Of a DNA stretch of 59,556 nt, positions 45,760 through 59,522 are shown in pieces. Each line of letters starts with the position of its first letter. Position 1 is the first letter of the stretch. The translations under genes were made by a program, and so were the position numbers. The DNA comes from Nitrospirota bacterium (GTDB taxonomy: Bacteria; Nitrospirota; Nitrospiria; Nitrospirales; Nitrospiraceae), in assembly GCA_030645475.1 (NCBI GenBank), contig JAUSMA010000054.1:1-59556 (forward strand), read 5' to 3'. Below the pieces are notes generated by a model, which saw nothing but the letters and a program-made list of their open reading frames with translations, searched no databases and had not been told where the DNA came from.

Positions 45760-46191
45760 TCACCCTGGCGAGACAGTTCTCGTAATCATCGGCAACCGCA
45801 AGGCCAACTCAGCAGCACTGGCCTTGACTCCCTGCTGCACCAAGGCCAGGACCTCGAGAAGATTGAATGGCTTGAGGAGATAGGCCACAGCCCCCAACCG
45901 CATGGCCTCTTCAGCAGATTCGAGACTTCCCCTCCCAGTCACCACGATGACTTTGACGGCTTGGCCACTTGCCCTCACCCGTCGAAGCAACTCCATTCCA
46001 CTGATATCAGGAAGGCCGACATCCATGATGACTAGGTCCATGGGACCTTCACCAATAATTTTCAGCGCGGCAGAAGCCGTCTCCGCCGTATAGACCCGAT
46101 AGAACGAACTGAGAATCATACAGAGGGCCTTTCGAGGCCCCTCTTGATCCTCAACGATCAAAACGTTTGGCTGAGAAGCGCCTATCGCCAT
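45760..46191 (-). CDS. Stand-alone response-regulator receiver protein
   Basis: A 143-aa CheY-like protein with no output domain. VLIVEDQEGPRKALCMIL gives the acidic pocket, VIMDVGLPDISGMELLRRV the phospho-accepting Asp (about residue 59), VIVVTGRGS the Thr, and VAYLLKPFN the Lys. It is a close paralogue of 56531-56926 (same SSFYR(V/I)YTAETASAALKII stretch). ATG at 46191 was chosen by alignment with that paralogue; upstream starts at 46209 and 46269 exist. No kinase is adjacent. Confidence 0.82.
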   Translation of the reverse strand: MAIGASQPNVLIVEDQEGPRKALCMILSSFYRVYTAETASAALKIIGEGPMDLVIMDVGLPDISGMELLRRVRASGQAVKVIVVTGRGSLESAEEAMRLGAVAYLLKPFNLLEVLALVQQGVKASAAELALRLPMITRTVSPG

Positions 46192-46637
46192 CACATGCTC
46201 CGCACACATTCGCTGATCCGACGCCTCATCATACCTGCACATCACATGTCCCACTAGGTGCATTGGCACTCTAAGTCCATTTAACCACGTAACGATAAAA
46301 CACTATATCTCCGGAGAGGCATCCACGGAGAGAATGACTCTACCGACGGATTTGTCCTACAGCGCCGCCAGGCCGAAGTCGACCGTAACACCTCAATACA
46401 TTGAGGCATTGGGCAGGAAGCCTGCTCAGCTGAACGGGCTGACATCCTTTCTTTGTCGCACGCATTGTAGGAATCGCCCTACAGCCGACATAGACTCAGG
46501 CGTAGTGACAACTCATCAGTATCGGTGCGAATCCAGCCATGCACGCCGGCGTCCTGCTATAACCATCGCCCTGCGCCTCAAAGAGCCAGTCGCCCTCCCA
46601 CGGCTGACTCGTTTTTTCCTGGCATTGCATGCACAGC
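46192..46637. other. Long intergenic region, no gene supported
   Basis: About 450 bp before the ECF site. The only structure seen is a small hairpin TGTAGG-AATCGC-CCTACA at 46467-46484 and a repeated CCTACAGC word (46357 and 46479). No open frame has a convincing start or protein-like composition. Confidence 0.4.
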
Positions 46638-46666
46638 GTTTACCTTTTCCTACTCCCGCCGTCTTA
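46638..46666 (+). promoter_or_regulatory. ECF-type promoter, site 4 (RD-repeat gene)
   Basis: GTTTACC at 46638-46644, exactly 15 bp, CGTCTTA at 46660-46666. It matches the three minus-strand sites at 50530, 52091 and 53511 in both boxes, the TT after the -35 box, and spacer length. It lies 117 bp before the ATG. Confidence 0.75.
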
Positions 46667-46783: not shown

Positions 46784-47098
46784 ATGAAGAACAGTCTATT
46801 GAAAGTCGGAACGATTGCCAGCTTGGTCATGGCCATGGCAGCCCCCGCCATTCTGCCGAATATCGTCTTCGCGCAGGCGGATGTTCGCCAGGAAGATCGG
46901 CGGGCGGATCGGCAACAGGATCGCCAAGCGGATCGGCGGGAAGATCGTCAGGCCGATCGCCAGCAAGACCGACAGGCTGACCGGCAACAGGATCGCCAGA
47001 TGGACCGTCAGGCGGATCGGCAGATGGATCGCCAGGCAGATCGGCAGCAAGATCGGCAAGCGGATCGGCGTGCCGATCGTGGTGGACGCGGCCGGTAA
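46784..47098 (+). CDS. Secreted Arg/Asp/Gln tetrad-repeat protein
   Basis: A 104-aa protein. Signal peptide at 1-31 (VGTIASLVMAMAAPAILPNI then VFAQA). The mature part is almost entirely tetrads of the form DRQx: ADRQQDRQADRREDRQADRQ and so on, ending GGRGR. Alternating opposite charges with period 4 suggest a charged single helix or a disordered polyampholyte. No family is recognised. GAAGGAG 8 bp before ATG at 46784. Driven by the ECF-type site at 46638 and followed by a strong terminator. Related tails occur in the genes at 51619 and 52214. Confidence 0.75.
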   Translation: MKNSLLKVGTIASLVMAMAAPAILPNIVFAQADVRQEDRRADRQQDRQADRREDRQADRQQDRQADRQQDRQMDRQADRQMDRQADRQQDRQADRRADRGGRGR

Positions 47099-47179: not shown

Positions 47180-47503
47180 CTACTGATGCCGCTTACCTTG
47201 GCGGTCGTGCTTTTCACAGGCAATGTGGCGCGAGGCACGATCCTGCGCATGGTCGATTCTAGCCCGCTCTCTCTTGGTGACCGTCCCATCTGACTTCGCC
47301 TTATCTTCCATCTTATTGATGTGTTCCTGCTGCTTGTTCAAGCGATTGGCTTCACGCTCATTCAGCTGGCCACTGGCAATCCCCTGATCGATCCGCTTCT
47401 CCTGATTGGCTTGCCGCTGATCGATCACGGGCCCGTCTGCCTGTGCGTAGGCCAGCCCCATGGTCAAGATGACTGCGCTGATGGCGAGCAACATCTGCTT
47501 CAT
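47180..47503 (-). CDS. Small exported charged protein
   Basis: A 107-aa protein. Signal peptide MKQMLLAISAVILTMGLAYA. The mature region has RQANQEKRIDQGIASGQLNE, LNKQQEHINKMEDKAKSDG and RERARIDHAQDRASRHI, a pattern seen in small periplasmic proteins of unknown function; Gly-Gln-Leu-x-x-x-Glu and Asp-Gly-x-(V/L)-T-x-x-E-(R) give a loose EF-hand-like or helix-turn repeat. It is rich in Arg, Gln and Asp like its neighbours, but I found no ECF-type site before it. RBS GAGGAGG 7 bp upstream. Confidence 0.7.
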   Translation of the reverse strand: MKQMLLAISAVILTMGLAYAQADGPVIDQRQANQEKRIDQGIASGQLNEREANRLNKQQEHINKMEDKAKSDGTVTKRERARIDHAQDRASRHIACEKHDRQGKRHQ

Positions 47504-47712: not shown

Positions 47713-48582
47713 TTAGTGGTCTCTTCCTCCGTGACCACTCCCTCCGCCTCGATCAGGTCGGCTGCCACGATCGGAACCTCCGCTGCGGTCACCGCCACTG
47801 CCACCCCGATCCGAGCTGCCGCTTCGATCGGAGCTCCCACCATGATCGCCACGGTCGCCGCTGCCGGATCCGCTGCGATCTTCCCGAAACAACCGGTCTC
47901 CTCGCTCTCCCCGGCTCACCTGTTCGCGAAGGGTCTGCAGACTCGCACGGCCATCATGGAACTCAGCTCCACGGCGCTTTACTTCCCGGCTGAGATCGAG
48001 CAATTCGGACGATCGATACCCTTGGCGAAGGCCTTCGCCCACCAGCGCAGTCCCATCCTTTGACGAAATTCGGCCCTCTTTCATCACCGCCAGGCTCTTG
48101 GCCCCGGCGGCCAAGGTCTCCTGCGTGACCTTCTGTTTTCCATCCTGAGAGACACGGGCAAGTTCCCGCACTTCCTCCGAAGAGGCGCCACGGGACAACG
48201 CATCGGCCATCATCTCGATAGCCCGCTGACGATTGCCTTCCGCCACACCGCGCGTCCCGACTTCTCGAAGAACTTCTTGCGCCGACTCAAAATGGGTCAC
48301 GAGCTGGCGTAGGACCGGATCGATCCGCTTCGGCTCCACGCCCTTCGCCAACCCTTCTTTCACTTTGTTGGCCAAGGGTTCCGTCGGCAGACCCTTTTCT
48401 CCCGCTTTCGCCACATGGTCCAGCAACTGATTGACCTCTTCGGCCGAATAGCCTTGGGCCGAACGAAGCCGGTTGATCTCCTCGCGATCTTGGACCGACA
48501 GCGTCTCCGCCTGAACGGCCGCGACCGGCAGCCAGAGCGCTACGATGATCAACCCCATGTGTATATTTGTTTGTATACGCAT
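47713..48582 (-). CDS. Exported helical protein with Arg/Asp/Gly/Ser-rich tail
   Basis: A 289-aa protein. Signal peptide MRIQTNIHMGLIIVALWLPV then AAVQA. Residues ~25-220 are helical repeats (EEVNQLLDHVAKAGEKGLPT, LANKVKEGLAKGVEPKRIDP, EGNRQRAIEMMADALSRGAS) with a repeating x-x-L-x-x-G-x-x pattern. The last ~70 residues are low-complexity DRGG/SDRSG repeats. ATG at 48582 has TAAGG 5 bp upstream and starts 4 bp after the previous stop. Last gene of the sigma operon; its function is unknown. Confidence 0.72.
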   Translation of the reverse strand: MRIQTNIHMGLIIVALWLPVAAVQAETLSVQDREEINRLRSAQGYSAEEVNQLLDHVAKAGEKGLPTEPLANKVKEGLAKGVEPKRIDPVLRQLVTHFESAQEVLREVGTRGVAEGNRQRAIEMMADALSRGASSEEVRELARVSQDGKQKVTQETLAAGAKSLAVMKEGRISSKDGTALVGEGLRQGYRSSELLDLSREVKRRGAEFHDGRASLQTLREQVSRGERGDRLFREDRSGSGSGDRGDHGGSSDRSGSSDRGGSGGDRSGGSDRGSRPDRGGGSGHGGRDH

Positions 48583-48586
48583 CGCC

Positions 48587-48946
48587 TTACCGCACCACGA
48601 CCACACCGTTCGTGTGCCCAAACCCATCGGTCACAAAATCTTCTGCCATCGGCGGCGTCACCCATCGAGTGCCGTTCACGAGATAGATGAAGGTATATTC
48701 CCCTTCATTCAAGGGCACCTCGGCCGACCAGAGGCCGTTGCGGTCAATCGCCTTCATCGGCGTGGCCCCCTTGCTCCAGCTGTTGAACGATCCCATCACG
48801 AATACCTCTGTGGCATCCGGTGCCAAAAGCGTAAATCGTACGCCCCCTGACACCCGCTTCGGCAACTCGGGCTTCATCGTCTGTGCGCAGGCCGACAGAC
48901 CGATGAACAACAGCACGATCACGAATCTCGGCACCATCTTGCTCAT
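48587..48946 (-). CDS. Lipoprotein with CBM48/AMPK-type glycogen-binding domain
   Basis: A 119-aa protein. Signal peptide with lipobox FIGLSAC (Cys at about 20). The rest is one CBM48-like module: VRFTLLAPDATEVFVMGSFN, SWSKGATPM, LWSAEVPLNEGEYTFIYLVN and GTRWVTPPMAEDFVTDGFGH. The conserved F-N-x-W and the aromatic positions for glucan contact are present. It closely parallels the C-terminal domain of the upstream anti-sigma candidate. ATG at 48946. It lies between an R125 repeat and the RD-tail gene, tightly coupled to the latter. Confidence 0.8.
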   Translation of the reverse strand: MSKMVPRFVIVLLFIGLSACAQTMKPELPKRVSGGVRFTLLAPDATEVFVMGSFNSWSKGATPMKAIDRNGLWSAEVPLNEGEYTFIYLVNGTRWVTPPMAEDFVTDGFGHTNGVVVVR

Positions 48947-49079
48947 GCGCGTGAGCGTACCCAACTGCGCGACTCGATGCAAGGAAGTCGATATGAGGAT
49001 TCGCAGGCTGTAAAAAAATCGAAACTCCCAATTCGCAATGCGGTCTCCGCACATTTATCATCGTATCTGAACAGGCCAC

Positions 49080-49200
49080 GGGATGCTCAAAAAGGCCGTC
49101 CTGCAAGGCCGCAGCAAACGAAGAGGCGAGGCGTACGCGTCGGTACGTTGAGCCTCTGAGCGCGGCGAGAACGCCGCTGGCGGACTTTTTCAGCATCCTG
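49080..49200 (+). repeat. R125 repeat inside the sigma operon
   Basis: GGATGCTCAAAAAGGCCGTCC to GGACTTTTTCAGCATCCTG (quoted in part), inner stem GAGGC/GCCTC unlike other copies. It directly abuts the TAA of the anti-sigma candidate and separates it from the lipoprotein gene, so it may act as an attenuator or terminator. Confidence 0.9.
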
Positions 49201-49887
49201 TTAGATACTGACATCGAGCACCGCATTCTGCGCTCCAAACCCATCGCCTGCCCCCTCTGCTGCCAGTGGGTCGGCAATCCATTGTTTGCCATCGATCACA
49301 AACATATATTGATAACGTCCCGGCTTCAGTGGAATCGTCGCCGTCCACAGGCCACCTTCGGATCGTTCCAACTGCGTCTGCCCTGGATTCCAGCCGTTAA
49401 AATCTCCCGCGACCGAGACCGACTTGGCACCAGGCTGAAGCAACACGAGCCGCACAAACACGGTAGTCTCTTGCCCAGGTGCGAATGACGCCTGCTGCGC
49501 CTGCCCCCCGGCAACCGGCACAGGCACTTCCACAATCCGTTCAGGCCCAACACGCAGCAGACCCACAACAGCGACCACCACCACACAAGCCGCAGCCATC
49601 GCGCCGGCCAGATTCCACTCCAACGTCCGCGGCAACGTCATGGCTGCGCGGAGTCGATCCCAGAGGCTGATGGACTCCGGCGCAAGCTTGGCCTGCACCT
49701 GCGCCATAAATCGCGCCGACGGCGCGACACGAGGCAACTGCGCTGCTTGGCTCACCACGAGTTCAAGGTTCAGCCAGCGCCGCCGCAACGACTGATCGGT
49801 ATCCATCGCCTGAAGAAACGTCACCCGCTCCTCCGGCGTCAGATCGTCATCGAGAAAGCGTTGGATCAGCAGCTCTTGTTCTCGCAT
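49201..49887 (-). CDS. Membrane anti-sigma factor candidate with CBM48 sensor domain
   Basis: A 228-aa protein. The N-terminal ~75 residues (ELLIQRFLDDDLTPEERVTF) match the zinc-less anti-sigma layout seen after ECF sigma genes. One transmembrane helix is at about 92-112 (LAGAMAAACVVVVAVVGLL). The extracytoplasmic C-terminus (about 145-228) is a CBM48/AMPK-type domain: FVRLVLLQPGAKSVSVAGDF, NGWNPGQTQL, LWTATIPLKPGRYQYMFVID. It starts 3 bp after the sigma stop. Fusion of an anti-sigma layout to a glucan-binding fold is unusual and suggests carbohydrate or envelope sensing. The role is inferred from position and topology. Confidence 0.72.
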   Translation of the reverse strand: MREQELLIQRFLDDDLTPEERVTFLQAMDTDQSLRRRWLNLELVVSQAAQLPRVAPSARFMAQVQAKLAPESISLWDRLRAAMTLPRTLEWNLAGAMAAACVVVVAVVGLLRVGPERIVEVPVPVAGGQAQQASFAPGQETTVFVRLVLLQPGAKSVSVAGDFNGWNPGQTQLERSEGGLWTATIPLKPGRYQYMFVIDGKQWIADPLAAEGAGDGFGAQNAVLDVSI

Positions 49888-49889
49888 CG

Positions 49890-50474
49890 CTACGCCTCTT
49901 TCAATTCTGCCAACTCACGACTCAACTGCACCCGTCCCTTATACACCCGCATTTTCAACGTATCGCCATTTACCCCGAGAATCTCCTGCATCTCTTCGTA
50001 ACTCAACCCTTCGACATGCTTCAAGACAAAGGCTTCTCGGTAGAGGGGCGGCAGCCGCTGGATCGCCCGATCCAATTCAGCAGCAACTTGCTGCTGCGAC
50101 AAGAGCCGTTCCGGGGTCCGCGCCTCCACCACTCGATCGTCGAGCACGTCTTCGATCTCGACATCTTGGAGCCCCTGCCCTGGCCGTTTGACTCTAAGCC
50201 AATCCTTGCACTTGTTGGCTGCGATCCGGTAGAGCCAGGTGGAAAACTTCGACTCGGCCCTGAACGTCGGCAGCGCTTTGAACGCCGCCACAAACGTCTC
50301 TTGGGCCAGATCCTCCGCCTCCGTCCGATCCCCCACCATGCGGTAAGCCAAGTTCACAATCACCGTCGCATATCGTTCGACTAACTGGCCGAATGCATCC
50401 TGGTCCTGCTTGAGGCAGCGAGCAACCAACTTGGCCTCGTCTGCCGCTCCTCGTGGGTCTAGCAGTATCGCCAT
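49890..50474 (-). CDS. ECF RNA polymerase sigma factor (RpoE-like)
   Basis: A 194-aa sigma factor. Region 2: DAFGQLVERYATVIVNLAYR, MVGDRTEAEDLAQETFVAAF and STWLYRIAANKCKDWLRVKR (about 27-105). Region 4: IQRLPPLYREAFVLKHVEGL and SYEEMQEILGVNGDTLKMRV (about 137-180). It is preceded by an ECF-type site with -10 box 56 bp upstream of the ATG, so it probably activates itself. First gene of an operon with the CBM48 anti-sigma candidate. Three more copies of the same promoter lie within 7 kb. Confidence 0.88.
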   Translation of the reverse strand: MAILLDPRGAADEAKLVARCLKQDQDAFGQLVERYATVIVNLAYRMVGDRTEAEDLAQETFVAAFKALPTFRAESKFSTWLYRIAANKCKDWLRVKRPGQGLQDVEIEDVLDDRVVEARTPERLLSQQQVAAELDRAIQRLPPLYREAFVLKHVEGLSYEEMQEILGVNGDTLKMRVYKGRVQLSRELAELKEA

Positions 50475-50529: not shown

Positions 50530-50558
50530 TTAGACGAGTCATCACGGTGAAGGTAAAC
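50530..50558 (-). promoter_or_regulatory. ECF-type promoter, site 1 (sigma operon)
   Basis: On the minus strand GTTTACC (50558-50552), 15 bp, CGTCTAA (50536-50530), giving a leader of about 50 nt to the sigma start at 50474. Confidence 0.78.
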
Positions 50559-50571
50559 GCCTACAAAATGA

Positions 50572-51504
50572 TTAGAATCGGTAACTGGCCCCGACCGAGA
50601 ATGCTTGATCCGGAGCCCCATTGGATACGCCTAGCGTCACACCGGCATTCAATCTCCAGGCCGCCGAAGCCGTATAGTTCACCGCGAAGAAAACATCACG
50701 GGCATTTACAAACCCCGGGACAATGGCTCGGTACTCTTCGAAATAGACGCTCGCCAAGAGATCTTTCGTCACGTAGTAACCGGCCCCGACGTCATACCAA
50801 TATTGATTCTGGAAGTTCAGCCCATCGGGATCCCCGATGATGTTGTAGCCCCCATCCAAAAATGCAATCCAACTATTGCCCAACATTTTGGACATTTCGA
50901 TGCCTGCCCCATAGTCCCATTCGCCGGTTCCAAGGCCCTGGCTGGCACTCGCCGTCGGCATCTTCACCCGTCCCGTTACCGCGATAAGCGGGAGATAGTC
51001 ATTTTCTTCCACTACATAGTAGCGCCCTCTCAGAATAATATCGCCGAGACCCGACGTCGTTACTTTTTGTCCGGCTGTTCTGGTTGTAGTTCCGCACGTG
51101 CGGTTCTTCCCGCTCACGTTAGAATTCTTCCCGCTACAGCCTCCATCGTCAGGAGTGCCTCCCCCTCCACCGCCCGATCCACTATTCGTGTTATCGTCGA
51201 CTCGTGTAGCCGTACCGCCGACAAGAGTGGTCCGTCCATCGCTAGTCGCGGTCACAAATGGGATAACCAGGGTCACATCGCCATCTTTAAACATTCTCCG
51301 AATCGATAGGGGCGCATAAAAAAATGTGCTGGTCGTGCCAGTCCCGAAGTTGCCACTGCTATAGCTGGGGGTAAACCCGAGCTGCCAATTGCGATCAGGG
51401 GAAGGTGGACCTTGATCGGTCTTATCCGCCGCATTGCCCACCATAACCCAGAGCCCCAAACACATAACGACACCGATCAGCACTCTTGTCCATTTCAACA
51501 TCAT
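50572..51504 (-). CDS. Outer-membrane beta-barrel protein (MetA-phenol-degradation-like)
   Basis: A 310-aa protein. Signal peptide (VLIGVVMCLGLWVMVGNAA). Alternating amphipathic strands (WQLGFTPSYSSGNFGTGTTS, DIILRGRYYVV, WDYGAGIEMSKMLGNSWIAF) and a C-terminal SVGASYRF ending in Phe indicate an outer-membrane barrel. A Gly/Ser/Cys-rich insert at about 105-140 (NTNSGSGGGGGGTPDDGGCS) is a probable long loop. It lies 114 bp downstream of the RD-repeat gene at 51619 with a hairpin between, so it may be the second, attenuated gene of that ECF-driven unit. Confidence 0.72.
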   Translation of the reverse strand: MMLKWTRVLIGVVMCLGLWVMVGNAADKTDQGPPSPDRNWQLGFTPSYSSGNFGTGTTSTFFYAPLSIRRMFKDGDVTLVIPFVTATSDGRTTLVGGTATRVDDNTNSGSGGGGGGTPDDGGCSGKNSNVSGKNRTCGTTTRTAGQKVTTSGLGDIILRGRYYVVEENDYLPLIAVTGRVKMPTASASQGLGTGEWDYGAGIEMSKMLGNSWIAFLDGGYNIIGDPDGLNFQNQYWYDVGAGYYVTKDLLASVYFEEYRAIVPGFVNARDVFFAVNYTASAAWRLNAGVTLGVSNGAPDQAFSVGASYRF

Positions 51505-51618: not shown

Positions 51619-51987
51619 CTAGTTGCGCCCAGCTCGCTCCGGCTTTTCCGGCCGTTCCGGTCTCTGCGGTCGTTCGGGGCGTTCCGGACGCTGCGAGCGC
51701 TCAACCCGTTCGGGGCGATTTGAGCGATCCATCTGGACAGACCGTGCATTGTCTCGCCCTTCCCGCCCATGCTCGCCCGCCACTTGATCTGCCCGATCGA
51801 GTCCGCGCACCTCGCCGCCGGCACTGGAACGGCGATCCTCCCGTCGATCTTCCTGCTTCAATCCTCGATCCTCTTGCCGTAACCCTCGATCCTCCTGGCG
51901 AACGTCACCCACCTGAGCAAATAGTGCGGGTACACCCACACTGGATAAGAGAAGCGACAAGACTGTGATGTGAGTTAAACGATTCAT
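51619..51987 (-). CDS. Secreted Arg/Asp/Glu/Pro-repeat protein
   Basis: A 122-aa protein. Signal peptide MNRLTHITVLSLLLSSVGVP then ALFAQ. The mature region has two repeat blocks: DVRQEDRGLRQEDRGLKQED (period 7) and RPERVERSQRPERPERPQRP (period 3-4 with Arg-Pro-Glu). The opening DVRQEDR is shared with the 46784 protein. It is polyampholytic, likely disordered. ATG at 51987 with AGGAGGGT upstream; an ECF-type site is 104 bp upstream. Confidence 0.72.
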   Translation of the reverse strand: MNRLTHITVLSLLLSSVGVPALFAQVGDVRQEDRGLRQEDRGLKQEDRREDRRSSAGGEVRGLDRADQVAGEHGREGRDNARSVQMDRSNRPERVERSQRPERPERPQRPERPEKPERAGRN

Positions 51988-52090: not shown

Positions 52091-52119
52091 TAAGACGAGG
52101 GAACGATGCCAAGGTAAAC
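52091..52119 (-). promoter_or_regulatory. ECF-type promoter, site 2
   Basis: On the minus strand GTTTACC (52119-52113), 15 bp, CGTCTTA (52097-52091), upstream of the secreted repeat protein starting at 51987. Confidence 0.75.
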
Positions 52120-52213: not shown

Positions 52214-52984
52214 TTACCGACTACGGCTGGCTCGATCTGCTCGACGATCAAGCTGACGGTCCTCTCGGCGATCGGCCTGATGATCGAGTTGGCGATCCTC
52301 GCGGCGGTCTACCCGACGATCGTCGTTTACATGCCGGACATCGTCACGGCCACCATGGCCGGATCCACTATTGGCGGAACCAGGCCCACGATTATCGGAT
52401 CCATGCCCGCTATTCCCAGAGCCGGGACCGCTGTTATCACTTCCACCTCGTCCGCCTCGAATGTCGGCCTGATTGCCGCCACGATCATTCACCCCCTCCA
52501 GGCGAAGTCGATCGAACTGCGCGCGAAGGCTCTGCCGTTCGGCTTCCGTCAGTTGCGATTGATCGACACCTTCAATCCTGGCCCGCAACTGTCCTTCTTC
52601 CCGTCCGACCCTTACCCGAACGTCACCGCTACGAAAGGTGACATTCCGTTCTGCGCCGTTCGCCGACGGCACGACGCTCGACACCTGGCGAAGCAGATTC
52701 TTGTTGGGATCGCTGTTCAGGAAGAGCACCCGCTGCTCGGCCTCTGTCAACGACACATTACGGAACTGCACTTCCTGCACCCCTGGCCGTGCGAATTGCG
52801 TTTGAATCGTTTGCTTCAGCGCCTCGATATCCACCGAGCCAGAGCCAGTCCTCGGCAACGCCCCGCTGATCTCGACCTGCCCATTCTGAATCGGCGAAAC
52901 AGTTTGAGCCCAGACCGAACTCGTCACGAGGGCCAATCCACTCACAATCCATACTGTCAGCTGATTCACGCGAAACCCTTTCAT
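52214..52984 (-). CDS. Exported protein with Arg/Asp-repeat C-terminus
   Basis: A 256-aa protein. Signal peptide VNQLTVWIVSGLALVTSSVW then A. About 28-160 is a globular region (VDIEALKQTIQTQFARPGVQ, LTEAEQRVLFLNSDPNKNLL, VRVRVGREEGQLRARIEGVD). About 165-205 is Gly/Ser/Asn-rich, and the final ~40 residues are RD repeats (DRREDRQLDHQADRREDRQL). The Gly-rich block repeats GSGNSGHGSDN-like units. ATG at 52984 has GGAAGGAGGGG upstream. It follows the lipoprotein gene at 55 bp, in the same ECF-driven unit. Confidence 0.72.
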   Translation of the reverse strand: MKGFRVNQLTVWIVSGLALVTSSVWAQTVSPIQNGQVEISGALPRTGSGSVDIEALKQTIQTQFARPGVQEVQFRNVSLTEAEQRVLFLNSDPNKNLLRQVSSVVPSANGAERNVTFRSGDVRVRVGREEGQLRARIEGVDQSQLTEAERQSLRAQFDRLRLEGVNDRGGNQADIRGGRGGSDNSGPGSGNSGHGSDNRGPGSANSGSGHGGRDDVRHVNDDRRVDRREDRQLDHQADRREDRQLDRRADRASRSR

Positions 52985-53039
52985 GGTGCCCCTCCTTCCC
53001 CTGTTTGTTTCATAACGAAAACACTGACTGGCCTGCCGA

Positions 53040-53480
53040 CTACGATCTCGGTTTAGGCAGATCCCCATGAGACGATCCTGCCGGCCTCGGCATATCAGCC
53101 AACACATCCGCCGACCAGGCGACGTGCGCCGGGCACCATTGCCATACACCGAGGGTGATGATTCGAGTAAGACCGGCAGGAATACAGGCCGTCGTATTCA
53201 CCGACACCTTTCGATTGACGACACGCGTCGAAGCCCCACAACGATTCAAGTAGGGTTCGCTGGCCACTTTGTGCAGGTCGAAGTGAGGGACAAAGAAAGC
53301 GACCACCGGCACCGGCAGGACCGCTAACGAAGAGTTGTCCACCCATTCGCCTCCGGCGCAGTGGCCGTCCAACCCCGCGGTTCGTTTCACATCGTCTCGA
53401 ACCAATGTCGACGTGCAACCAGGCAGGAGCAGAAGAATTAAAAGAACGAGCACACTCGCTGTTGAATGGACCTGTCGCAT
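53040..53480 (-). CDS. Bor-like lipoprotein
   Basis: A 146-aa protein. Signal peptide with lipobox ILLLLPGC (Cys at about 22). The C-terminal half resembles Bor/Iss-type proteins loosely: RCGASTRVVNRKVSVNTTAC, then GLTRIITLGVWQWCPAHVAW, with Cys pairs and the I-T-L-G-(I/V) motif. The mature N-terminus is unassigned. It is the first gene after the ECF-type site at 53511, with a strong GGAGGAAGGAGGG leader. The repeat-tailed gene 52214 follows. Confidence 0.6.
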   Translation of the reverse strand: MRQVHSTASVLVLLILLLLPGCTSTLVRDDVKRTAGLDGHCAGGEWVDNSSLAVLPVPVVAFFVPHFDLHKVASEPYLNRCGASTRVVNRKVSVNTTACIPAGLTRIITLGVWQWCPAHVAWSADVLADMPRPAGSSHGDLPKPRS

Positions 53481-53510: not shown

Positions 53511-53539
53511 TTAGACGAGGGAGGGGGAGAAAGGTAAAC
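53511..53539 (-). promoter_or_regulatory. ECF-type promoter, site 3
   Basis: On the minus strand GTTTACC (53539-53533), 15 bp, CGTCTAA (53517-53511). The predicted leader to the ATG at 53480 is only about 25 nt and contains the RBS. Confidence 0.78.
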
Positions 53540-53861: not shown

Positions 53862-56060
53862 TTACTGCATCACGCCAGTGGTGACGATACTCACAGGACC
53901 ACTTGCCGGAGATACGCCCACGAAGGTGCCCGCCGGCGTCAGAACCCCGGTGTTGACATCAATCGTAAAGGCCGTCACGTCATTGGAACCTCGGTTCGCC
54001 ACATAGGCCCTCCGCCCACTCACGTCCACGGTGATGGAAGCCGGGTTCAGCCCTGCGACAACCGGAGCGCCCGCAGACGTTAGCGCCCCGGTAATCCCAT
54101 CGATCGCGAACATAGACACATTGTTGGAGCCGGTGTTCGCCACATACGCCCACCGTCCGCTCGGGTCCACCGTCACAGAGACGGGGTTTGCCCCCGTAGG
54201 AACCGAAGCGCCCACCGCCGTCAATGCTCCGGTCATGCTATTGATCCTGAATACCGACACATCGTTCGAGGTACCGTTGGCCACATAGGCAAACCGCCCG
54301 CTCAGGGCCACGGTGACGGAGACCGGATTCGTCCCGACGGCAAACGGACTACCCGCCACCGGCGTCAATGCCCCGTCGACTCGATTAATCGCATACGCTG
54401 ACACGCTATTGGAGCCATGATTCACCACATAGGCCCACTGCCCGCTCAGATCCACCGTCACGGCACGAGGGCTAGCTCCTGCAGCAACCGAACCCACAGC
54501 GGTCAACCCCCCGCTGAGCCCGTCGATCGTGAAGGCCGACACATCGTTGGAGCCTTGATTCGCCGTATAGGCAAACCGCCCGCTTGGGTCCACGCTGACG
54601 GCCATGGGAGCCGTCCCGGCAGCAACCGTCCCCACGGCGGTCAATTCTCCGTTCGTACTGTTGATCGCAAAGGCCGACACATCGTGAGAGCCTTGATTCG
54701 CCGTATAGGCAAACCGCCCGATCGAGTCCACGGCTACAGCATGGGGAAGCGTCCCTGTGGAAAATGGACCGCCCGCCGCTGCCGTTAGTGCCCCGGTCGT
54801 ACTGTTGATCGTGAACGCCGACAGGGTCTCGGACAATTGGTTCGCCACATAGGCAAACTTCGGCGTGAACTGCACTGGTGCCCTGCCACCGACAATAGTT
54901 AATGAACTCGGACCGGTGCGGGTGACAACGGTTCCGGACGTCGACAATGGTGTCAGCGCTCCGGTGACACCATTGATCGCAAAGGCCGACACGGTGTTGT
55001 CACCGAAGTTCGTCACATAGACGAATCGCTCGCTTGGGTCCACCGTGACATACATGGGGTTTATGCCTGTAGCAACCGGAGCTCCCACCGCCGTCAATGC
55101 GCCGGTCGTACTGTTGATCGTGAATGCCGACAGGCTGTTGTCACCAAAGTTCGCCACATAGGCCCACCGCCCGCTCGGGTCCAAGGTGATGGCACGAGGG
55201 TCAATCCCTGTTGGAACCGGAGCGCCAGCTGTCAAAGCGCCAGTCGTGCTGTTAATCGTGAAGACCGACACCGTGTTGTCACCGCGGTTCACCACATAGG
55301 CCCACCGCCCGCTCGGATCAACGACGACGGCGCGGGGGAGTGTCCCAGTGGAAAACGGACTGCCTACCACCGCGGTCAGCGCTCCAGTCGTATTATTGAT
55401 CGTGAAGGCCGACACGTTGTCGGAAAAAAGATTCACAACATAGGCAAACCGCCCGCTCGGGTCGACCGTGATATACATGGGAGCAGTCCCTGCGGCAAAC
55501 GGACTGCCCGCCACCGCACTCAACGCCCCCGTCGTGTTATTGATCGTGAAGGCCGACACGTCGTTGGACACACGGTTCGCCACATAGGCCCACCGCCCAC
55601 TCGAATCCACGGTGACAGAAAGGGGGTTTGTCCCTGCGGGCACCGATGGGCCTACCACCGTAAGCGTTCCGGTTGTGCTGTTGATTGCGAACGCCGATAC
55701 GCCACCGGTGATTTCGTTCGTTGCATACGCGAATCGACCGTTTGGGGACAAGGAAACGGAGCTGGGATTGAGCCCTCCCGTCGTGACGTACCCGAGCGGT
55801 CGCAACTGTCCGTTTGTCGGATTGACTGCATAGATAGAGAGCGAGTTCTCGTTCCCGTTCGTCACATAGGCAAACCGAGGCACACTAGCAACAACTGCTG
55901 CCGATGATGTTGGTGCGACCGCCCCGCTACTTCCGCCATCGCCGCCCCCGCCGCATCCCGCTAGAATGACACCCATAATGCCAAGTGTCGCAAGCGACAA
56001 CACCTGGGCCCCCTGCATGATCCCCCTGATCGAGCAAGAAAATCGTTCCATCGTGGTCAT
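53862..56060 (-). CDS. Lipoprotein with two seven-bladed YVTN-type propellers
   Basis: A 732-aa protein. Signal peptide and lipobox (GVILAGC, Cys at about 36), then a Gly/Ser tether. Two sets of seven ~42-residue YVTN/lactonase-like repeats follow, each of the form SVTVDPSGRWAYVAN, then NDVSAFTIN, then TTGALT. The sets are separated near residue 380 by a PSSLTIVGGRAPVQFTPK linker. Seven blades each predict two closed propellers in tandem. It is probably surface-exposed; substrate or ligand unknown. ATG at 56060 with GGAGGTAAGG immediately upstream. Blades are so alike at DNA level that recombination between them is likely. Confidence 0.82.
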   Translation of the reverse strand: MTTMERFSCSIRGIMQGAQVLSLATLGIMGVILAGCGGGGDGGSSGAVAPTSSAAVVASVPRFAYVTNGNENSLSIYAVNPTNGQLRPLGYVTTGGLNPSSVSLSPNGRFAYATNEITGGVSAFAINSTTGTLTVVGPSVPAGTNPLSVTVDSSGRWAYVANRVSNDVSAFTINNTTGALSAVAGSPFAAGTAPMYITVDPSGRFAYVVNLFSDNVSAFTINNTTGALTAVVGSPFSTGTLPRAVVVDPSGRWAYVVNRGDNTVSVFTINSTTGALTAGAPVPTGIDPRAITLDPSGRWAYVANFGDNSLSAFTINSTTGALTAVGAPVATGINPMYVTVDPSERFVYVTNFGDNTVSAFAINGVTGALTPLSTSGTVVTRTGPSSLTIVGGRAPVQFTPKFAYVANQLSETLSAFTINSTTGALTAAAGGPFSTGTLPHAVAVDSIGRFAYTANQGSHDVSAFAINSTNGELTAVGTVAAGTAPMAVSVDPSGRFAYTANQGSNDVSAFTIDGLSGGLTAVGSVAAGASPRAVTVDLSGQWAYVVNHGSNSVSAYAINRVDGALTPVAGSPFAVGTNPVSVTVALSGRFAYVANGTSNDVSVFRINSMTGALTAVGASVPTGANPVSVTVDPSGRWAYVANTGSNNVSMFAIDGITGALTSAGAPVVAGLNPASITVDVSGRRAYVANRGSNDVTAFTIDVNTGVLTPAGTFVGVSPASGPVSIVTTGVMQ

Positions 56061-56530: not shown

Positions 56531-56926
56531 TCATTGTGCCAATTTCGTGTCCTTGACCTTCAACGCATCCTCAACCAGAGTAAGCACCTCTTGAAAATTG
56601 AACGGCTTGAGCAGATAGGCCACCGCTCCCAATCGTAACACTTCTTCAGCAGACTCGATGGAGGCCCCCCCGGTCATGACAATCACTTTGACCTCTTGCC
56701 CGCTAGCTCTGACCCGTCGAAGCAACTCGATACCGCTATAGTCGGGAAGACCGACATCCATAAGGATCAGGTCGATGGGGCATTCGACAATAATCTTTAG
56801 CGCAGCTGAGGCCGTCTCCGCCGTATAGATCCGATAGAACGAGCTGAGAATCATCATCAGGGCCCTACGCGGGCCCTCTTGATCCTCAACAACGAGAATA
56901 GTCTGCTCAGATGGGGTTGCTGCCAT
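56531..56926 (-). CDS. Stand-alone response-regulator receiver protein
   Basis: A 131-aa CheY-like receiver without output domain. ILVVEDQEGPRRALMMIL (about 10-27), LILMDVGLPDYSGIELLRRV (phospho-Asp about 58), VIVMTGGAS and VAYLLKPFNFQEVLTLVEDA. Paralogue of the protein at 45760, differing mainly in the C-terminal tail. It lies between the two propeller genes on the same strand, and no histidine kinase is present in the window. Confidence 0.85.
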   Translation of the reverse strand: MAATPSEQTILVVEDQEGPRRALMMILSSFYRIYTAETASAALKIIVECPIDLILMDVGLPDYSGIELLRRVRASGQEVKVIVMTGGASIESAEEVLRLGAVAYLLKPFNFQEVLTLVEDALKVKDTKLAQ

Positions 56927-57308: not shown

Positions 57309-59522
57309 TTACTGTACCTGTCCACTCGTGATGACGCTTACAGGCCCACTAGCCGGAGCCGAACCCGCAAAGGTACCTGCTGCTGTCAGCGCCCCAGTGG
57401 CGTTATCAATCGTAAAGGCCGACACGTCATTAGAGCCTTGATTTGCCACATAGGCGCGCCGTCCGCTCGGATCCACCGTCACGGAAGCAGGATTCAGCCC
57501 TGCGGTAACCGTACCCACAGGCGTCAGCGCCCCGGTCAGGCTGTTAATGGTAAACGCCGACACATTATTTGCGGCACTTTGGTTCACCACATAGGCCCAC
57601 CGCCCACTCGGGTCCACCGTGAGAGAAACAGGATTCGTCCCTGCGGCAACTGAGGCCCCTACTGCAGTCAAAGCCCCGGTCGTGCTATTGATCGAAAATA
57701 CCGACACGTCGTTAGAGAGTTCATTCACCACATAGGCCCACTGCCCACTCGGATCCACCGTCACAGAGACAGGATTTGTCCCCGTGGCAAATGGACTGCC
57801 TGGCACCGCCAGCGCCAACAACTCGCCAGTCACGCGATTGATTTTAAACGCTGACACGCTGCTGGAACCTCGGTTGACCACATAGGCCCACTGCCCACTT
57901 GGATCCGCCGTCACAGAGACAGGATTTGTCCCCGCGGCAAACGGACTACCTGGCACCATCAACGCCGTCAACCCTCCAGTAACGCTATCAATCTGGAACG
58001 CCGACACATCGTTGGAGCCGAGGTTCGATACATAGGCAAACCGACCACTCGGGTCGACGGTCACGGACACAGGATTCGTTCCGGTGACAATCGGAACACC
58101 CACCGCCGTCAACGCCCCAGTGGCCGCATCAACCGTGAACGTCGACACAGTGTTGTCGCCAAAGTTCGCCACATAGGCCCATCGCCCGGCCGGATCCACC
58201 GTGACGGCACGAGGCGTCGTACCCACAGCAACTGGAAGGCCTACGGCCGCCAACGCTCCGTTCGTACTATTGATCGCAAACGCAGACACGTTATTGGACA
58301 GTTGGTTCGCCGTATAGGCAAATTTCGGCGTGAACTGCACCGGCGCAGTCCCGCGGACCAGAGCGAGAGAGCTAGGACTAGTGCGAGCTGCGACCGTCCC
58401 GGACGTGGCTAAGGGGGTCAGAGCCCCCGTCGTGCTGTTGATGGCAAAGGCCGACACGGTATTGCTGACTTCGTTCGTCGCATAAACAAACTGGCTATTG
58501 GGATCCACCATCACGGAGATCGGACCACTTCCCGCCGGACTGTCTGCTATCGGGCTCAAGGACCCGGTCGCACTGTTGACTGTGTACGCCGACACGCTAT
58601 TGGCTCCAAAATTTGCCACATAGACCCACCGCCCGCTCGGGTCCATCGTGATAGCCCTCGGGTCCACGCCTGTAGGAGTCTCGAAGCCCATCAACTTTGT
58701 CAGCGCCCCCGTCATACTGTCGATCGCGTACACCCAGATATTGCTGTCGTCGCGATTCGCCACATAGGCCCACCGTCCACTCGGGTCCACGACGACAGCA
58801 CGCGGGCTCGCCCCCGCGGCAAACGGGCTGCCAGGCACTGCCGTCAACGCCCCTGTGGTGCTATTAATCGCATAAGCCGACACGTTGTCGGTGGCGAGAT
58901 TCACCACATAGGCGAACCGCCCGCTCGGATCCACCGTCACCACCATAGGATTTGTCCCGGTAGCGACTGCGCCGACGATCGTCAGCGCCCCGGTTACGCT
59001 ATTGATCGTGTACGCCGACACGCTGGCGGCATTACGATTCACAACATAGGCAAACCGCCCGCTCGGATCCACCGTCACCGACGTGGGCAACGGACCGGCC
59101 GCGATCGGTGCGCCCACCGCCGTCAAAGCCCCCGTCGTACTATTGATCGTGTACGTCGACAGACTGTCGCTTTGGTTCGCGACATAGGCGAACCGCCCGC
59201 TCGGGGCCACCGTAATGGAGAAGGGCTGGAACGCGGAGATCATGTACCCGAGTGAGCGTAACTGACCACTGCTCGCGTTGACCGTGTACATCGAGATAGT
59301 GTTCTCGTCCGTATTCGTGACATAGGCAAACCGGGCCACAGCAGACGTTGCTGGGGCTACTGGTGACACTGGGGCTGGGGCTGCCCCACCTGCCCCACCT
59401 CCTCCGCCACTCCCGCAAGCTGCCAGGGTGACGCTCACGAGACTTATCGCCGTGATAGTCACCAGCCGTGCGGCCTGCCTTAGGATGCTAATCAAGTGAG
59501 GGAATCGTTCCATCGCTGTCAT
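57309..59522 (-). CDS. Lipoprotein with two seven-bladed YVTN-type propellers (paralogue)
   Basis: A 737-aa protein closely similar to the one at 53862. Signal peptide with lipobox SVTLAAC (Cys at about 36) and a Gly/Pro tether. Fourteen ~42-residue repeats occur in two sets of seven (for example SVTVDPSGRFAYVVN and NDVSAFQID), split near residue 385 by PSSLALVRGTAPVQFTPK. Start ATG at 59522 with AGGAGGTTAGG upstream. The leader GTGAACGACGAAT...GGAGGT, the ATG context and the downstream hairpin are all shared with the paralogue, so the whole transcription unit was duplicated. The gene is complete within the window. Confidence 0.82.
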   Translation of the reverse strand: MTAMERFPHLISILRQAARLVTITAISLVSVTLAACGSGGGGGAGGAAPAPVSPVAPATSAVARFAYVTNTDENTISMYTVNASSGQLRSLGYMISAFQPFSITVAPSGRFAYVANQSDSLSTYTINSTTGALTAVGAPIAAGPLPTSVTVDPSGRFAYVVNRNAASVSAYTINSVTGALTIVGAVATGTNPMVVTVDPSGRFAYVVNLATDNVSAYAINSTTGALTAVPGSPFAAGASPRAVVVDPSGRWAYVANRDDSNIWVYAIDSMTGALTKLMGFETPTGVDPRAITMDPSGRWVYVANFGANSVSAYTVNSATGSLSPIADSPAGSGPISVMVDPNSQFVYATNEVSNTVSAFAINSTTGALTPLATSGTVAARTSPSSLALVRGTAPVQFTPKFAYTANQLSNNVSAFAINSTNGALAAVGLPVAVGTTPRAVTVDPAGRWAYVANFGDNTVSTFTVDAATGALTAVGVPIVTGTNPVSVTVDPSGRFAYVSNLGSNDVSAFQIDSVTGGLTALMVPGSPFAAGTNPVSVTADPSGQWAYVVNRGSSSVSAFKINRVTGELLALAVPGSPFATGTNPVSVTVDPSGQWAYVVNELSNDVSVFSINSTTGALTAVGASVAAGTNPVSLTVDPSGRWAYVVNQSAANNVSAFTINSLTGALTPVGTVTAGLNPASVTVDPSGRRAYVANQGSNDVSAFTIDNATGALTAAGTFAGSAPASGPVSVITSGQVQ

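Follow-up and report, generated by a model that had tools for sequence, protein, structure and literature searches.

Introduction

The AlgU-MucA-MucB and sigma-E-RseA-RseB systems are among the closest described counterparts of the locus studied here; they act on envelope target genes and carry the gene of a periplasmic partner in the operon. Nitrospira includes main nitrite oxidisers and comammox organisms, and no paper on an ECF envelope switch in Nitrospira was found in the literature searched. ECF envelope switches and carbohydrate-sensing anti-sigma factors are already known separately, the latter from the RsgI/sigma-I pairs of cellulolytic clostridia, in which a membrane anti-sigma factor carries extracytoplasmic CBM3 or other modules and the sigma factor is autoregulated (PMC6056542). 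In the glycogen-binding domain of AMPK, a member of the CBM48 family, sugar is contacted by W100, K126, W133, L146 and T148 (PMC2642990). The literature searched contained no case of an ECF anti-sigma factor with a CBM48 domain combined with a CBM48 lipoprotein, and unpublished annotations of this architecture may exist.

In this study, we analyzed a window of 59,556 nt from a Nitrospira genome of 3.75 Mb (99.9% complete), which, among named genomes, is closest to Nitrospira MAGs, N. moscoviensis and N. defluvii.

Candidate anti-sigma factor and cognate sigma factor

The gene at 49201..49887 (minus strand) starts with ATG and codes for a protein of 228 aa, which is probably an ECF anti-sigma factor. 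Its predicted parts are a sigma-binding domain (residues 1-72), a membrane helix (residues ~93-113) and a C-terminal CBM48 domain (residues 142-228). Relatives across the genus show 70-93% identity and the protein is conserved over the phylum too, so the open reading frame is not a chance one.

The original prediction had proposed a cytoplasmic anti-sigma-like N-terminus, a single membrane helix and a C-terminal CBM48/AMPK-type domain, and all three held. First, residues 7-72 matched the profile of RsiW (5wuq) with E=0.055, and residues 14-139 matched the NCBIfam model 'anti-sigma factor' (NF052375) with E=1.9e-7, under its curated cut-off. The structure predicted from an alignment of 15 close relatives had a mean pLDDT of 51 and is a weak pointer; in it, the top structural neighbour of the N-terminus was RsiW (Z 7.0, rmsd 7.7, 66 aligned), and MucA also led the list (Z 5.6, rmsd 2.5, 51 aligned). 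Because such Z values are only middling by the scale of the tool, the assignment draws on these several modest lines together with the adjacent ECF sigma gene. Second, residues ~93-113 form the sole strong hydrophobic segment. Third, residues 151-228 scored above both Pfam gathering cut-offs, with 41.4 bits for AMPK1_CBM (cut-off 26.8) and 41.3 bits for CBM_48 (cut-off 22.4), and the domain (49204..49464, minus strand) resembled solved CBM48s in sequence, including those of pullulanase (5ot1, E=2.9e-9), AMPK beta-2 (4y0g, E=6.3e-6) and branching enzymes. In the weak structural model, residues 142-217 had CBM48s and AMPK as neighbours at Z ~5.4, about equal in score to filamin rows; at such middling values, the CBM48 assignment is based on sequence.

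A zinc-binding motif of the HxxxCxxC type was also looked for in the window protein. Residues 1-90 contain neither Cys nor His, so the zinc site is absent, and the zinc anti-sigma (ZAS) class was rejected for the Nitrospira protein on account of the missing ligands.

The putative cognate ECF sigma factor is encoded at 49890..50474 (minus strand), separated from the anti-sigma gene by 2 nt in the window, and the two genes are adjacent across the family. It contains regions 2 and 4 only (Sigma70_r2, PF04542, and Sigma70_r4_2, PF08281, both above cut-off). Its nearest models are SigW and RpoE, the best NCBIfam score being that of a SigW model. This is the sigma factor that the anti-sigma protein would sequester.

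Conserved module across Nitrospirota and Elusimicrobia

The gene that follows in the operon had been predicted to encode a lipoprotein with the same domain, and this was confirmed after correction of its start. The listed open reading frame of 155 aa is too long at its N-terminal end; comparison with relatives favours a start at 48982, which gives a protein of 131 aa (48587..48982, minus strand) with the lipobox LSAC, whose Cys32 is invariant among relatives, and a CBM_48 score of 42 bits, above the gathering cut-off. A dispersed hairpin repeat of 121 bp (49080..49200, strand not assigned) is inserted between the anti-sigma and lipoprotein genes. It occurs in at least 40 copies among the matches listed (221 first-look candidates in the genome), has a folding z of -3.2 and is MITE/REP-like. 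A similar element lies between the barrel and sigma genes of another locus (L058), and no RNA family was found in the region with Rfam.

The next gene (47713..48582, minus strand) encodes a conserved periplasmic protein of helical repeats with a disordered Gly/Ser/Asp/Arg tail. Its core was modelled with a mean pLDDT of 90.7; it matched no known family, and structural comparison with the PDB gave no convincing match. A small secreted protein of 107 aa (47180..47503, minus strand) closes the series of conserved genes in many genomes. On the other side of the sigma gene, an outer-membrane barrel of the Phenol_MetA_deg family (50572..51504, minus strand) is kept as the upstream neighbour in Nitrospiraceae.

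We counted 67 Nitrospirota loci (the window, L049-L094 and L121-L140). Wherever the relevant flanking sequence was available, the CBM48 lipoprotein (64 of 64 loci) and the helical protein (65 of 65 loci) were present; every missing case fell at a contig end. The order in Nitrospiraceae is barrel, sigma, anti-sigma, CBM48 lipoprotein, helical protein and often the small secreted protein, while other Nitrospirota families have lipoprotein, sigma, anti-sigma and helical protein, followed mostly by a different (BBP2_2-like) barrel. Outside Nitrospirota, a single scan recovered the module in two Elusimicrobia (L095 and L096), where helical protein, sigma and CBM48 anti-sigma are followed by a giant surface-type protein of 2046 aa or 2656 aa, the first with CarboxypepD_reg domains. 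The anti-sigma protein of L096 contains HxxxCxxC and weakly matches zf-HC2 (E=0.053) and a ChrR-type anti-sigma (E=0.0034), and this speaks for an anti-sigma role of the family. By its conservation and gene order, the combination of sigma factor, predicted CBM48 anti-sigma factor, CBM48 lipoprotein and helical protein is one unit, real and old.

Two genomes, G117 and G300, are natural loss cases: their anti-sigma gene is broken (L151 and L152), and the lipoprotein, the helical protein and the small secreted protein remain.

CBM48 domains: ancestry and sugar site

In the window genome, CBM_48 was detected only in the anti-sigma protein, in the lipoprotein and in one protein of 833 aa with two CBM48s, which is probably a branching enzyme. 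In a tree of 65 domains, the CBM48s of anti-sigma proteins and lipoproteins grouped together in a clade (96/97) that excluded the stand-alone CBM48s of the phylum; the deep forks inside this clade had no resolution. The two groups are thus nearer to each other than to the stand-alone domains. A further set of CBM48s was seen at the C-terminus of proteins of 360-400 aa in other Nitrospirota (L141, L142 and L153). Those of L141 and L142 adjoin a MerR-type regulator and a protein beginning LGRGL..ISH, and the set is a different CBM48 system.

For the residue comparison, we used the AMPK reference letters, with N150 as an additional AMPK site. The equivalents of W100, W133 and N150 in the window protein are Trp166, Trp203 and Asn221. 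Among anti-sigma domains they are kept in 65/65, 65/65 and 63/65 cases, and among lipoprotein domains in 66/66, 64/66 and 65/66; the Trp pair and the Asn rank among the most conserved columns of the domain. At the K126 position, 61 of 65 anti-sigma domains have Met and most lipoproteins a hydrophobic residue; the L146 equivalent is mostly Phe, and that of T148 is not kept. With K126 changed and T148 not kept, ligand or affinity may differ from those of AMPK. The residue pattern favours a sugar platform that has been retained with altered specificity, on which a polysaccharide could bind.

The main alternative retains the pairing of the two proteins but dispenses with the sugar. The CBM48 folds would be protein-contact modules through which the anti-sigma factor and the lipoprotein (or the helical protein or the barrel) bind without sugar, and envelope damage would break this contact, as in RseA/RseB. 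The pair is never separated, the K126 and T148 equivalents are lost, E-set folds often act as contact modules and the genome search gave no RseB, all of which suit this explanation. However, a sugar site would be expected to drift in a pure protein interface, and the sugar-contact Trp pair and the Asn are kept over ~130 domains in two protein groups. We therefore regard pure protein contact as possible but rather doubtful.

Predicted promoter and target genes

A motif, GTTTAC-N16/17-CGTC, was found upstream of the sigma gene in Nitrospiraceae. It occurred within 250 nt upstream of 40/48 sigma genes versus 20/920 other open reading frames (150 aa or longer); of the eight sigma loci that lack it, several are one base off or have a mis-set start. 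When the window genome was searched with GTTTAC-N16-CGTCTAA, one mismatch being allowed, four sites appeared, all inside 7 kb of the window. The first predicted promoter (50530..50558, minus strand) lies upstream of the sigma gene and suggests autoregulation. Another (53511..53539, minus strand) is 30 nt upstream of a putative target lipoprotein of unassigned family (53040..53480, minus strand), and this site also accompanies relatives of the lipoprotein encoded elsewhere in other genomes; a secreted protein with an Asp/Arg-repeat tail (52214..52987, minus strand) is encoded downstream of it and is possibly co-transcribed. The remaining two precede predicted targets that are secreted repeat proteins: the site at 52091..52119 (minus strand) that of an RQEDR-repeat protein of 122 aa (51619..51987, minus strand), and the site at 46638..46666 (plus strand) that of a DRQ-repeat protein of 104 aa (46784..47098, plus strand).

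Two further pairs of genes were noticed in this region. Large paralogous lipoproteins with beta-propeller-like repeats (YVAN...VSAFTINSTTGALT) are encoded at 53862-56060 and 57309-59522 (minus strand), immediately upstream of the target cluster, and two very similar stand-alone receiver-domain-like proteins (45760-46269 and 56531-56926, minus strand) lie one on each side of the cluster.

A family-wide count over 117 genomes, with exact GTTTAC-N16-CGTCTWA and the reversed pattern as control, gave 104 sites versus 6 for the control; 72 of the exact sites lay within 15 kb of an anti-sigma gene. The site was present in 40/41 genomes with the anti-sigma gene (counting G117, whose frame is broken), one having no exact site, versus 9/76 without it (Fisher's P 2e-21, a statistic that ignores shared descent). 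Unlinked sites in relatives precede, at a distance of ~32-50 nt, genes of the same lipoprotein family or of an OmpA-like barrel; upstream of an AsmA-family gene the distance is 148 nt. The predicted target genes are an envelope-type set. It is strongly supported by this distribution that the sigma factor would drive its own operon and a few envelope genes via GTTTAC-N16-CGTCTWA.

The motif could instead be a general promoter of another sigma factor, clustered locally as a consequence of the neighbourhood and not controlled by the window sigma factor. Nine genomes without the system do carry sites, several of them being a different conserved promoter-like sequence, and some Nitrospiraceae without the system have one nearly identical site in common. 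Yet the sites track the system across the family, and unlinked ones precede the same lipoprotein family, so we consider control by another sigma factor unlikely. The nearly identical site, GTTTACACTTTGGCTCATAACTCGTCTAA, was seen at L204 and L205 (G318 and G143) and also in G233, G328, G330 and G333; no clear gene lies behind it in these genomes without the system, and it is perhaps the promoter of a related sigma factor.

The promoter motif with its targets, the helical partner at 47713-48582 and the phylum-wide distribution go beyond the original prediction.

Proposed mechanism

Our analyses suggest that the locus encodes a cell-envelope ECF sigma/anti-sigma switch with an outer CBM48 sensor, for which a polysaccharide is the probable ligand and the lipoprotein an RseB-like partner; we give this reading a probability of about 60%. 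The most economical model would be a switch of the MucA/RseA type with a CBM48 pair in place of the RseA-RseB pair, the signal being the state of an envelope polysaccharide. Residues 1-72 of the anti-sigma factor would hold the sigma factor at the inner membrane in an inactive state, in the manner of RsiW and MucA, and both CBM48s would bind the polysaccharide and/or each other in the periplasm, with an alpha-glucan-like polymer as a first guess. The state of the polymer would decide whether the anti-sigma factor is cleaved by a site-1 protease and then by an RseP-type M50 protease; M50 proteases are present in the window genome. The lipoprotein would take the role of RseB/MucB, and MucB_RseB (PF03888) had no match in the 99.9% complete genome. 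The freed sigma factor would then turn on secreted Asp/Arg-repeat proteins, lipoproteins and outer-membrane proteins, by which the envelope or matrix might be remodelled.

That the signal is carbohydrate or contact between the two CBM48 modules had been proposed from the outset. Universal linkage of the two genes, shared ancestry of their CBM48s, the kept Trp pair and the envelope-type motif now add to that proposal, while binding and contact themselves are what we infer from these patterns. In a more speculative version, which we hold to be rather improbable, the CBM48s of the inner-membrane anti-sigma factor and the outer-membrane lipoprotein share one periplasmic polysaccharide and the sigma factor reads its bridging of the two membranes; if true, this glycan gauge would define a new class of envelope sensors spread across Nitrospirota.

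A sensor for an external carbohydrate nutrient, comparable to the RsgI of cellulolytic clostridia that senses plant polysaccharides, would have a similar logic of extracytoplasmic carbohydrate-binding module and autoregulated sigma factor (PMC6056542), but is very unlikely given that a CBM48 on an inner-membrane protein faces the periplasm and that the predicted targets comprise secreted repeat proteins, lipoproteins, a barrel and AsmA, with no glycoside hydrolases or sugar transporters among them. Under the envelope-switch reading, Nitrospira may read a sugar polymer of its own envelope. For Nitrospira, the locus yields a named candidate sensor and a ligand class that can be tested, together with a promoter sequence and a short list of targets, and poses the question of which alpha-glucan-like polymer occurs in the Nitrospira periplasm. 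Carbohydrate-sensing anti-sigma factors, of which RsgI is the known example, would also be extended to ECF systems of Gram-negative bacteria, here paired with a CBM lipoprotein.

Comparison with known systems

The Nitrospira system shares with RsgI/sigma-I the extracytoplasmic carbohydrate-binding module and the operon pair, and autoregulation of the sigma factor, known for sigma-I, is predicted in Nitrospira (PMC6056542 for RsgI/sigma-I). However, sigma-I does not belong to the ECF factors, the modules of RsgI face the exterior of a Gram-positive cell and control glycoside hydrolases, and the text consulted mentions no CBM-bearing lipoprotein partner (PMC6056542). Membership in the RsgI family was rejected, the partner being an ECF sigma factor and no RsgI model appearing among the Pfam/NCBIfam matches.

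AlgU-MucA-MucB and sigma-E-RseA-RseB are alike in the ECF sigma factor and the single-pass anti-sigma factor, with a structurally similar cytoplasmic part in the case of MucA, as well as in the envelope target genes, which in Nitrospira are predicted, and in the partner gene within the operon. They differ in that the predicted Nitrospira sensor is a CBM48 and the partner a CBM48 lipoprotein, not RseB; membership in the RseA/MucA type with RseB/MucB was likewise rejected, the PF03888 partner being absent from the genome.

In SigW-RsiW, RsiW is the solved structure that the N-terminal domain matches best, and the sigma factor scores highest with a SigW model; the CGTC-type -10 of the motif also resembles the SigW class. 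Zinc ligands are absent from the Nitrospira protein, and RsiW is not known to carry a CBM48.

Finally, the glycogen-binding domain of the AMPK beta subunit belongs to the same Pfam family and both sugar-contact Trp are kept, whereas the Nitrospira domain is bacterial, predicted to be periplasmic and fused to a probable anti-sigma factor, with K126 replaced by Met and L146 by Phe.
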